DNA from: Pseudomonas putida
Lineage (GTDB): Bacteria; Pseudomonadota; Gammaproteobacteria; Pseudomonadales; Pseudomonadaceae
Assembly: GCF_001636055.1 (NCBI RefSeq)
Contig: NZ_CP011789.1
Span: forward strand, 3,162,001-3,226,000
DNA length: 64,000 bases
Reading direction: 5' to 3'
Shown here: piece by piece, positions 51,026 to 55,169 of the stretch
How the letters are laid out: every line of letters starts with the position of its first letter
Numbering within the stretch: position 1 is the stretch's first letter
Made by a program: the position numbers and the translations under genes
The notes under the pieces: model-generated
What the model was told of the DNA's origin: nothing
The model's input: the letters and a program-made list of their open reading frames with translations, nothing else
The model's database searches: none

Positions 51026-51526
51026 TCACTTGCCGTGCTTGGCCTGAAGCTGTTTGGCATGCTCCAGGTGCTTCTCGAGGGTGGGCAGGGTTTCGCTGGC
51101 GAAGGCCTTGAGCTCCGGCTTGTCGGACGATGCGGCTTCCTTCTTGAACAGCTCCACGGCTTTCTCGTGGGCATCGACCTGATTGTTGACATAGGACTTG
51201 TCGAACGACTCGTCGCGCCATTCCAGGATCATCTTCTTGACTTTGTCGGTGAGCGCAGCCTCGTCAGGCACGCTGATATCCAGCTTGCGGGCGATATCAC
51301 CGAGCTTCTGGTTGGCCTGGGTGTGATCGGTGACCATCTGCTGGGCGAAGGTCTTGATCTCGGCGTCCTTGCTCTTTTCCAGCGCCAGGTTGCCGGTTAC
51401 GACTTCAGCGATACCGGCTTCGGTCGCGGCCTCGACGAAATCGTCGGAGGAAGCGGCCATCACCTGCATCGAGGCAAGGCCCATGGCCATGCACAGACCG
51501 GCTCGCTTGAGGAACAGAGTATTCAT
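51026..51526 (-). CDS. DUF4142-family periplasmic protein
   Basis: 166 residues with a signal peptide (cleavage near residue 24, GLASMQVMA-A). The ferritin-like helical DUF4142 pattern follows: FVEAATEAGIAEVVTGNLALEKSKDAEIKTFAQQMVTDH within residues ~29-67. Role unknown; such proteins appear in envelope stress settings. The ATG at 51526 gives the signal peptide. Divergent from the Zur-box operon. Confidence 0.85.
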   Translation of the reverse strand: MNTLFLKRAGLCMAMGLASMQVMAASSDDFVEAATEAGIAEVVTGNLALEKSKDAEIKTFAQQMVTDHTQANQKLGDIARKLDISVPDEAALTDKVKKMILEWRDESFDKSYVNNQVDAHEKAVELFKKEAASSDKPELKAFASETLPTLEKHLEHAKQLQAKHGK

Positions 51527-51649
51527 GTGTCTCTCCTTGTCCGTGGTCGCGACATCGGTGTCGCAGACGGTTGAGCGTCGGTAAGCGGCGAAAGTTTGAA
51601 ATTTCTCACCGGCGTCATGCTCGGCGGGAGGGGAAGGGGGTTGCAAGTA

Positions 51650-51670
51650 AATTGTTATAACGTAACATTT
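51650..51670. promoter_or_regulatory. Zur box upstream of the zinc-sparing operon
   Basis: The palindrome with core GTTA-TAACG-TAAC (51654-51666) inside A/T flanks closely matches the gammaproteobacterial Zur consensus (AAATGTTATAnTATAACATTT). It ends 31 bases before the GTG start of the carbonic anhydrase, overlapping the promoter. The three genes that follow are all known Zur targets in P. aeruginosa. Confidence 0.8.
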
Positions 51671-51701
51671 GCGTGAATCAGCTTGCCTCAGGAAACGCAC
51701 C

Positions 51702-52262
51702 GTGATCCGCAGAAACCCTTCCGGCCACCTCCCGCAAATCGCCGAATCGGCCTACATCGACAAGACCGCGATCATCTGCGGCAAGGTCATCATCAAGGAC
51801 AATGTGTTCGTCGGCCCCTACGCGGTCATTCGCGCCGACGAGGTGGACGGCACCGGTGACATGGAGCCGATCGTCATTGGTGCCAACTCCAACATTCAGG
51901 ATGGCGTGGTCATCCACTCCAAATCCGGCGCGGCGGTGAGTATCGGTGAATACACCTCCATCGCCCACCGCTCCATCGTGCATGGCCCCTGCGTGATCGG
52001 CGATCGGGTGTTCATCGGTTTCAACAGCGTGCTGTTCAATTGCCGCGTGGGTGATGGCAGCGTCGTGCGTCACAACTCGGTGGTCGATGGTCGCGACCTG
52101 CCGGAGCGCTTTTACGTACCGCCCACCGAACATATCGGCCCGCACACCGATCTTGACCGTTACCCACCGGTCAGCGTGTCAGCCTCGGAGTTCTCCGAGG
52201 ATGTCGCCCGCACCAACATCGACCTGGTGCAGGGCTACAAGGCCCTGCAGAACGAGTTCTGA
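51702..52262 (+). CDS. Gamma-class carbonic anhydrase (Cam-like)
   Basis: 186 residues, left-handed beta-helix of hexapeptide repeats (IIKDNVFVGPYAVIRADE, then IGANSNIQDGVVIHS). Metal-ligand histidines His72, His89 and His94 have the H-x4-H spacing of archaeal Cam. It can use metals other than zinc. The start is GTG at 51702 with AGGAA upstream; the frame upstream overlaps the Zur box. It is the homologue of the gene before pyrC2 in the P. aeruginosa Zur cluster. Confidence 0.87.
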   Translation: MIRRNPSGHLPQIAESAYIDKTAIICGKVIIKDNVFVGPYAVIRADEVDGTGDMEPIVIGANSNIQDGVVIHSKSGAAVSIGEYTSIAHRSIVHGPCVIGDRVFIGFNSVLFNCRVGDGSVVRHNSVVDGRDLPERFYVPPTEHIGPHTDLDRYPPVSVSASEFSEDVARTNIDLVQGYKALQNEF

Positions 52263-52264
52263 TC

Positions 52265-53602
52265 ATGGCCGACTTGCTGATACGCAACGCACGGCTGGTC
52301 AACGAAGGGCGCGAGTTCGAGGCTGACCTGCTGGTCGCCCGCGGGCGCATCGACAAGATCGCCTCGAGCATCGAAGGCGTGCGCGCTAAAGTCGAGATCG
52401 ATGCGCAAGGGCAATGGTTGCTGCCGGGAATGATCGATGACCAGGTGCACTTTCGTGAACCTGGGGCAGAGCACAAGGGGAACATTGCCAGTGAGTCGCG
52501 GGCTGCGGTGGCCGGCGGCATCACCAGTTTCATGGACATGCCCAACACCGACCCGCCAACCCTCACCACTGCGGCGCTGGCCGACAAGAAACGTCGCGCG
52601 GCGGCCAGCTCGCAGGCCAACTACGGCTTTCACTTCGGCGTCAGTCGCGACAACCTGGACACCATCGCCGCGCTCGACCCGAGTGAAGTCGCCGGGGTCA
52701 AGGTGTTCATGGGTGCGTCCACGGGCAATATGCTGGTGGACGACCCGCAGGTGCTCGAGCGGCTATTCATCTATTGCCCGACCATCCTGCTGGCCCACTG
52801 CGAACACACCCCGAGCATCCTGGCCAACGAGGCATTGTGGCGGGAGCGCCATGGCGAATTCATTCCTGCGGCCGCTCACCCGCTGATTCGCGATGCCGAT
52901 GCCTGCTATCGCTCCTCGTCACTGGCTGTGGACATGGCCAGGCGTTTCGGCACGCGCCTGCATGTGCTGCATCTGACCACCGCGCGTGAAGTGGCGCTGT
53001 TCGCCCCAGGGCCCGTGAGCAACAAGCACATTACCGCCGAGATCTGCGTGCATCACCTGCTGTTCGATGACAGCGACTATGCGCAACTCGGCCATCTGAT
53101 CAAATGCAACCCGGCCATCAAGACCCGTGCCGACCGCGATGCACTGCGCCAGGCGCTGGCCGGCGACGTGATCGACGTGATTGGCACCGATCATGCTCCG
53201 CACACGCTCGAGGAAAAACGCCGAGTCTATGGTCGCGCGCCCTCAGGCCTTCCACTGGTGCAGCATGCTTTGCCAGCCGCGCTGGAGCTGGTCGGCGAGG
53301 GCGTGCTGAGCCTGACCCAGGTAGTCGACAAGACCAGCCACGCCGTGGCCCGCCTGTTCGCCATCCGCGAGCGCGGCTTTCTGCGCGAAGGCTACTGGGC
53401 CGACCTGGCGCTGGTCGAGCGCCTGGCGCAACCGCGCCCGGTCGCCGACGACCCGATCCTGTCCCGCTGTGGCTGGACACCCTTTCAGCATCGACACCTG
53501 CGGCATGTGGTGCGCACCACCGTGGTATCCGGCCAGCTCGCCTGGCATCAGGGCCAGGTGCAGCCACGCTGCCAGGGCCTGCCGCTGATGTTCGATCGAT
53601 GA
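52265..53602 (+). CDS. Dihydroorotase paralogue (PyrC2-like)
   Basis: 445 residues, amidohydrolase fold. It catalyses carbamoyl-aspartate to dihydroorotate in pyrimidine synthesis. The metal motif reads DDQVHFREPG: the first histidine of the usual HxH is Gln60 while His62 is kept. Carbamylated-Lys region GVKVFMG, then AHCEHTP, LHVLHLTT and GTDHAPHT are present. It starts two bases after the carbonic anhydrase stop and belongs to the Zur operon as a zinc-starvation backup. Confidence 0.88.
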   Translation: MADLLIRNARLVNEGREFEADLLVARGRIDKIASSIEGVRAKVEIDAQGQWLLPGMIDDQVHFREPGAEHKGNIASESRAAVAGGITSFMDMPNTDPPTLTTAALADKKRRAAASSQANYGFHFGVSRDNLDTIAALDPSEVAGVKVFMGASTGNMLVDDPQVLERLFIYCPTILLAHCEHTPSILANEALWRERHGEFIPAAAHPLIRDADACYRSSSLAVDMARRFGTRLHVLHLTTAREVALFAPGPVSNKHITAEICVHHLLFDDSDYAQLGHLIKCNPAIKTRADRDALRQALAGDVIDVIGTDHAPHTLEEKRRVYGRAPSGLPLVQHALPAALELVGEGVLSLTQVVDKTSHAVARLFAIRERGFLREGYWADLALVERLAQPRPVADDPILSRCGWTPFQHRHLRHVVRTTVVSGQLAWHQGQVQPRCQGLPLMFDR

Positions 53603-53626
53603 CCCTTTATTGCACGAGTGTGCCCC

Positions 53627-54034
53627 ATGACTGAAGAAGACTTGCTCGGCCAGCCGGCCGAGGCCTACATGAACGAACCCCAGCGCCAGTACTTTCGTAA
53701 CCTGTTGCTGGGGCAGCGGGTGGAGTTGCAGGAGCGTATAGAGCAGGATTTCCAGGCGCTGCGCGAGCAGGAAGTGCACAGCGATCCGGCCGACCTGGGC
53801 AGTGCCGAGGAGGAGCGGCATTGGCAGTTGCGCACCCTTGAGCGGGAAAAGCGCCTGCTGGACAAGATCGACCAGGCGCTCGAGCGCCTGGCCAAGGGGG
53901 ATTATGGCTGGTGCGAAGAGACCGGCGAGCCGATCGGTCTGCGCCGGCTGCTGCTGCGTCCGACCGCGACCCTGTGCATCGAGGCCAAGGAGCGGCAGGA
54001 ACTCAGAGAGCGGCATTTGCGCGACGATGCTTAA
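53627..54034 (+). CDS. dksA2: Cysteine-poor DksA paralogue (DksA2)
   Basis: 135 residues. Coiled-coil domain with the DPAD tip motif (Asp53, Asp56) that enters the RNA polymerase channel. In the zinc-finger position only Cys96 and Cys117 remain; the second and fourth ligands are Thr99 and Ala120. This C-T-C-A pattern defines DksA2, which works with ppGpp without zinc. Lies 24 bases after the dihydroorotase gene; the stop overlaps the convergent mgtC by 4 bases. Confidence 0.93.
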   Translation: MTEEDLLGQPAEAYMNEPQRQYFRNLLLGQRVELQERIEQDFQALREQEVHSDPADLGSAEEERHWQLRTLEREKRLLDKIDQALERLAKGDYGWCEETGEPIGLRRLLLRPTATLCIEAKERQELRERHLRDDA

Positions 54035-54744
54035 TCGACTTCTACCGCTTGGGCATGGAGTTGCCAGCGCACCGAGCTGACGCCTTTCTCCAGGCTCACT
54101 CGGCTGACCAGACGCTCGAGTTGTGCGGGCGCCTGTGGGGTACCCAGCAGTTCGGCGCGTACTTCCAGGCGCAGCGGGTCGTGGAGGTCTTCGCTGTGCA
54201 GCGACTGCAGGCGCAGGCCTGGGTCACTGAGGCTGTGCAGCATCAGGCTGCGTACCTGGATCTCGTCTTCGGCCCGGCAGACGATGCGCACCTCGAAGCG
54301 TTGCTCGACTTCACTGGCGGGCACCACGTCCTGACGGTCCAGGCGCTGGGCGATGTCGCGCAACAGGATGTTGGCACACAGCACCACCAGGCTGCCCAGA
54401 GTGGCCTCCAGCAACAGCCCCAGGCTGCACAGCACACCAATGGCCGCGGTGCACCAGAGCGTGGCGGCCGTGTTCAGGCCGCGCACGTTGAAACCATCAC
54501 GCATGATCACGCCACCACCGAGAAAGCCGATCCCGGACACGACATACGCGGCGATGCGCGAGGCGTCGCTGGGTTCCATGCCGGGTACCGCCTGGGTCAT
54601 CAGTACGAACAGGCAGGCACCGGTGCTGACCAGCGCATTGGTGCGAAGGCCGGTCAGGCGCTGGCGCAGTTGACGTTCGGCGCCGATCAGGGCGCCGAGT
54701 ACGAGGGCCACGCTGACGCGCAGCAGAAATACTTTCCAATCCAT
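54031..54744 (-). CDS. MgtC/SapB-family membrane protein
   Basis: 237 residues. Four to five membrane helices in the first ~125 residues with the MgtC signatures GALIGAERQLRQRLTGLRTNALVS and GIGFLGGGVIMRDGFNVRGLNTAAT split by helices, followed by a ~90-residue ACT-like cytoplasmic domain. MgtC supports growth in low magnesium or in macrophages and inhibits F1Fo ATP synthase in Salmonella. Start at ATG 54744 with AGAGG. A long leader region precedes it. Confidence 0.9.
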   Translation of the reverse strand: MDWKVFLLRVSVALVLGALIGAERQLRQRLTGLRTNALVSTGACLFVLMTQAVPGMEPSDASRIAAYVVSGIGFLGGGVIMRDGFNVRGLNTAATLWCTAAIGVLCSLGLLLEATLGSLVVLCANILLRDIAQRLDRQDVVPASEVEQRFEVRIVCRAEDEIQVRSLMLHSLSDPGLRLQSLHSEDLHDPLRLEVRAELLGTPQAPAQLERLVSRVSLEKGVSSVRWQLHAQAVEVD

Positions 54745-55169
54745 AGCAAACCTCTTTCCACGGGCAATGGCCCGCGCATGCGCCACTGGCAAGCGTGACG
54801 CCGATGAAATGAATGAGCGCGCAGGACCACGACACTCGCCGGCATGAGCTGGCTGAGCGGGAAAGAAGAGGGGAGATCTGCCTTTGCAGGCGAGATGGAC
54901 CGCCGTCTACCGTATTCGGCAAGACAGCGGCAGGAATGCTGCCGGACTAGCTTGCCGTGTGGACCTGTCGCAATCGACTGGGGCTACTGTCCAATGCAGG
55001 ACTCCTGTAGGGGATGCATAAGTGCGACGCGGACCTTACGCCTGCAGTTGCGCAGAATCAAGGCCGAATTCATGACAATTGCTTCATTGCCGAAACCTCC
55101 TACCGTTTCCGATGCGTTCGTCAGCGGTGGTAACCTTGGCGCCTTTCACCATCCACGCCGGACTGTCCC
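54745..55169. other. Divergent region between mgtC and crtZ
   Basis: 425 bases without a supportable protein gene. On the minus strand there is a five-codon frame with a strong AGGAGG (ATG near 55089) whose stop overlaps the ATG of a 29-codon frame; both are upstream of mgtC and could be leader peptides, but this is weak. No M-box pattern recognised. Confidence 0.45.

Follow-up and report, generated by a model that had tools for sequence, protein, structure and literature searches.

A Pseudomonas putida locus in which genes for a γ-class carbonic anhydrase, a second dihydroorotase and a DksA paralogue follow one another raises the question of whether they form a zinc-starvation operon under the control of Zur, and whether each product truly replaces a zinc protein. 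The locus lies in a window of 64,000 nucleotides (G000:C1:3162001-3226000), by which we mean the whole stretch of DNA that was analysed, and the genome is a single contig of 5,808,624 bases. Feature coordinates are those of the window unless given as genome positions. The sequence comparisons reported here lead us to propose that the three genes very probably constitute a zinc-starvation operon under Zur.

The three genes are arranged head to tail on the plus strand. The first (51702..52262, GTG start) encodes a γ-class carbonic anhydrase of the PA5540/PaCAγ1 type, featuring hexapeptide repeats (Pfam Hexapep) and with both carbonic anhydrase and CcmM chains among its PDB matches. Two bases further on begins the gene of the dihydroorotase PyrC2/PyrQ (52265..53602, ATG start), which scores 698.6 bits against NCBIfam NF006688 (cut-off 535) and whose nearest solved chain is the dihydroorotase 2gwn (446 bits), a D-D-Q-V-H motif being found in both. 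After a gap of 24 bases comes dksA2 (53627..54034), encoding a DksA whose C4 zinc finger is incomplete (TIGR02420, 134.1 bits for a cut-off of 115.5); its start is most likely the ATG at 53627, an in-frame GTG also being present at 53618. The nearest solved chain, 4ijj, which we take to be the P. aeruginosa DksA2, aligns over residues 1-133 of 135 (192.8 bits) and displays the same C-x-x-T / C-x-x-A pattern, but differs in gene position. The trio and its spacing hence agree with the initial annotation of the locus. The short gap between pyrC2 and dksA2 favours a single predicted transcript for the three genes, and no terminator-like site was found in 51400-54900.

The same annotation had placed a Zur-type palindrome directly upstream of the three genes, and this element proved to be conserved and, as an exact match, unique. 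It is a 17-bp odd palindrome, TTGTTATAACGTAACAT (51652..51668, without strand), whose core TGTTATANNNTAACA (51653-51667) is separated by 34 bases from the GTG at 51702. In a genome-wide pattern scan the core was the sole exact match in 5.8 Mb, and within the 64-kb window it was the only place on either strand with ≤2 mismatches. A putative -35 element, TTGCAA (51641..51646, plus strand), is located 16 bases before a putative -10 element, TAACAT (51663-51668), which falls in the right half of the box; a -10 element inside the box is common among Zur targets, according to a review (PMC10393844). This promoter is a candidate only, since a strict sigma-70 scan scored no site at the operon. A putative ribosome-binding site, AGGAA (51690..51694, plus strand), precedes the GTG by 7 bases.

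The distribution of the locus was examined by searching 298 genomes of the genus, of which 117 (the window's included, counted by hand) contain a match to PyrC2 scoring 661 bits or more. In each of these the neighbourhood of a single match was read; for L210 it is a contig of only 3.9 kb. The compact order carbonic anhydrase-pyrC2-dksA2 occurs in 12 of the 117. All 12 carry a box no more than 150 bases ahead of the carbonic anhydrase gene (11 exact and one with a single mismatch), and in none did the stretch read contain an upstream match to folE2. Eight more genomes have pyrC2-dksA2 without the carbonic anhydrase gene, with a box (≤2 mismatches) within 150 bases of pyrC2 in five and further up in three, and within 700 bases in all eight. 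Another 94 resemble P. aeruginosa in having folE2 upstream in the same orientation, and the remaining three arrangements are those of L166, L199 and the short L210. For 43 of the 117 genomes, dksA2 was not seen in the stretch read, possibly owing to the edge of that stretch. For background, the PyrC2 loci were divided into 12109 consecutive 150-base stretches, 196 of which contain a box with ≤1 mismatch on either strand, the true boxes being included; box counts for this background, the operon heads, dksA2, zur and the second DksA paralogue were all made on both strands.

When the upstream regions of the 12 compact genomes were aligned, the box, a TTGCA-like element and the GTGATCCGC start of the carbonic anhydrase gene were conserved, while the remaining upstream sequence diverged. 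The start is identical across the 12 genomes, TTGCA or a similar sequence (TTGTA, TTGCG) keeps a fixed distance ahead of the box, and relatives carry AGGA, AGGG or AAGG near the position of the putative ribosome-binding site. The spacing within the operon is less constant: pyrC2 and dksA2 are separated by 73-147 bases in eight of the 11 compact relatives and by 34-47 bases in the other three, in every case more than the 24 bases of the window. Eight of the ten compact relatives L149-L158 have a gap of 73-147 bases rich in strong REP-like GC hairpins. With these wider gaps and hairpins, one transcript is less certain in the compact relatives, where the hairpin-rich gap might conceivably affect dksA2.

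In a tree of PyrC2 with 66 rows (five named loci and 61 of the 117), the compact genomes fell into a single supported group (13 rows, 100/100) together with L159 (G257), a close relative with no carbonic anhydrase gene before pyrC2, a box with two mismatches and a long PyrC2 branch. The compact operon is a lineage-specific arrangement of known parts. Its gene order is not described in the portions of the main text considered here, figures and supplements aside, of PMC4542158, PMC8531726, PMC13261364, PMC2770081 and PMC10393844. Another arrangement was seen in L008, L160, L164 and L165, in which a gene overlapping the start of pyrC2 heads pyrC2-dksA2. In L008 this gene matches phosphoribosyl-AMP cyclohydrolase (PF01502), and by eye the first genes of the three other loci look to be of the same type.

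Is the box part of a wider zinc regulon? With ≤1 mismatch, the genome scan returned six places (seven rows, one place being matched on both strands), compared with one for a reversed control pattern. Five of the six precede genes of zinc-regulon type, namely the operon itself, cobW/folE2, an amidase, ribosomal protein L31 and a TonB-dependent receptor. The cobW/folE2 box is flanked on one side by a cobW gene and on the other by a 129-aa open reading frame and folE2 on the opposite strand; the amidase is an N-acetylmuramoyl-L-alanine amidase, and the L31 gene is presumably of the rpmE2 type. The sixth site, at genome position 4263700 before an Mrp-type antiporter gene, is probably due to chance. 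The statement in the initial annotation that the locus exists here in the compact three-gene form alone is therefore misleading, as folE2, two cobW-type GTPases, DUF1826 and the amidase are all encoded elsewhere in the genome, along with two further Zur-type boxes. The genome also encodes the counterparts of the three products: a canonical PyrC of the E. coli type (TIGR00856) at genome position 1872177, two β-class carbonic anhydrases, and a C4 DksA paralogue at genome position 1322382.

A candidate for the regulator is a FUR-family gene at G000:C1:565305-565664, the second besides a strong Fur match; its own sequence and its ZnuA- and ZnuC-like neighbours, read by eye, suggest that it encodes Zur. 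A search of both strands of the 14 kb surrounding zur/znu with ≤3 mismatches returned a single match, several kb from zur, and no Zur-type box near that gene, so our box pattern is an incomplete model of Zur sites.

Other explanations of the box have to be weighed against control by Zur. It could be an operator for Fur (iron) or another AT-rich operator, or arise by chance, in which case the operon would not be zinc controlled. Fur-family boxes are similar to one another, and Fur is present in this genome; yet other boxes of this kind precede folE2/cobW, amidase and L31 genes, and the conservation of the box in every genome with the same gene order also argues against this view, which we consider highly improbable. 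A chance palindrome was rejected on the strength of the genome scan and the phylogenetic footprint. The box might alternatively serve the DUF4142 gene that diverges from the operon (minus strand, start at 51526), instead of the operon or besides it, since the box sits between the two, at a distance of 126 bases from the DUF4142 start. However, among 10 relatives with wide flanks, no match to this DUF4142 adjoins the operon (one, in L155, is 3.6 kb off) and the box is still there, making such a role unlikely; as the main role of the box, DUF4142 control is unsupported by synteny in these relatives. Control of the operon by Zur in response to low zinc, as initially proposed, is accordingly well supported by the sequence and the phylogenetic footprint; Zur binding, repression and co-transcription are inferences, as is any metal preference of the carbonic anhydrase and PyrC2.

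A further possibility accepts control by Zur and questions the role of the products: the carbonic anhydrase and PyrC2 would be added copies of metal enzymes, whose induction increases the quantity of enzyme available to capture scarce metal, leaving DksA2 as the only real substitute. The initial annotation had presented each product as a low-zinc substitute, which holds for DksA2 through the loss of ligands and is not firm for the two enzymes. In DksA2, Cys96, Thr99, Cys117 and Ala120 stand in place of the four cysteines of the C4 paralogue, and over 83 matched loci the pattern of the finger is CTCA in 65, CTSA in 16 and cut in two. The γ-carbonic anhydrase has lost no ligand, His72, His89 and His94 being invariant in all 87 matched loci. 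PyrC2 has one of six metal-ligand positions changed and five kept, the positions being deduced from the alignment together with the E. coli ligands that PMC2770081 names. Gln60 is found at the first His of the HxH of zinc dihydroorotases (2gwn alignment) in 139 of 140 loci, with His62 in the same 139 and L053 unreadable there, while Lys146, His178, His236 and Asp309 are present in all 140. These figures were obtained by alignment, a survey with a regular-expression motif being too strict (it missed 41 of the 140 loci), and they are not independent counts, because many species are represented twice and one of the six search patterns contains the Gln; the 60 loci that came from the genus-genome search are free of this latter dependence.

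The invariance of the carbonic anhydrase histidines and of the five kept PyrC2 ligands, wherever readable, speaks for added copies, as does the copy-number idea that Haas 2009 (PMC2770081) put forward for other paralogues whose ligands are retained. Against it stand Gln60, a changed site in every one of the 139 readable PyrC2 loci, and the Methanosarcina Cam, whose activity is highest with iron (as cited in PMC2770081); for the γ-carbonic anhydrase, the portion of PMC13261364 considered here gives no metal content. We regard the added-copy view as a real, if somewhat doubtful, possibility. Equally tentative is the combined proposal that PyrC2 is a metal-switched dihydroorotase and that pyrC2-dksA2 is a portable Zur-controlled core, the first gene of which would have been swapped between lineages (γ-carbonic anhydrase, HisI-type or none). 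In this conjecture, the invariant Gln at the first ligand of a site that is otherwise unaltered would allow PyrC2 to work with a single metal or with one other than zinc. The Gln provides a precise residue through which to ask how a dihydroorotase manages without zinc.

Taking the locus as a Zur-controlled zinc-starvation operon, we propose the following mechanism. In zinc-replete cells, a Zn-loaded Zur dimer would sit on the 51652-51668 palindrome, over the likely -10 element, and block RNA polymerase. A drop in cytoplasmic zinc would release Zur, and one transcript would yield the three proteins. The γ-carbonic anhydrase would then back up the two β-class enzymes so that bicarbonate supply goes on, PyrC2 would back up PyrC and maintain pyrimidine synthesis, and DksA2 would back up the zinc-finger DksA and sustain the stringent response. 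In P. aeruginosa, a znuA deletion raises the expression of the same three genes 37.6-, 37.9- and 134.6-fold (PMC4542158), and binding of Zur to the dksA2 promoter has been reported (PMC8531726).

The closest known system is the P. aeruginosa cluster PA5532-PA5541 (Pederick 2015, PMC4542158), which contains the γ-carbonic anhydrase PA5540, PyrC2 PA5541 and DksA2 PA5536, has Zur sites within it and is induced by zinc depletion. There, folE2-carbonic anhydrase-pyrC2 and dksA2-cobW are separate units of one cluster, whereas in the window dksA2 lies behind pyrC2, without folE2, the cobW genes or the amidase, which occupy other parts of the genome. An analysis of Zur regulons with COG0523 and paralogues of zinc enzymes also predicted that the P. 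fluorescens regulon includes paralogues of Cam, PyrC and DksA (Haas 2009, PMC2770081). The present locus would extend the Pseudomonas low-zinc response to a lineage with a different operon order.

This order also bears on a published survey (PMC10393844), in which dksA2 was judged from the 150 bases before each ATG and its control by Zur seemed to be lacking in the putida and syringae groups. Using either our own pattern (≤2 mismatches) or the consensus of PMC10393844, on either strand and with the same result, we found a box within 150 bases of dksA2 in 53 of the 54 genomes where dksA2 stands apart and in none of the 20 where it comes after pyrC2. These 20 genomes have a box at the head of the operon instead; a survey confined to 150 bases before each gene can miss control of dksA2 by Zur. 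We assume from a few named members (P. mosselii, P. putida GM4FR, P. juntendi, P. bharatica) that the 20 genomes belong to the putida group. The box at the operon head may explain the reported missing control in that group, an explanation that is offered rather than established because group membership is assumed.

Two further proteins were encountered. The genome encodes another DksA-like paralogue with an incomplete zinc finger (C-x-x-S / C-x-x-A) on the minus strand at G000:C1:4271462-4271566 (L118), and no Zur-type box with ≤3 mismatches was found on either strand of its 3-kb locus. The 129-aa protein encoded near folE2 behind a Zur-type box (L137:10359-10748 and relatives) has no Pfam match and finds a counterpart in 87 of the 117 loci read.
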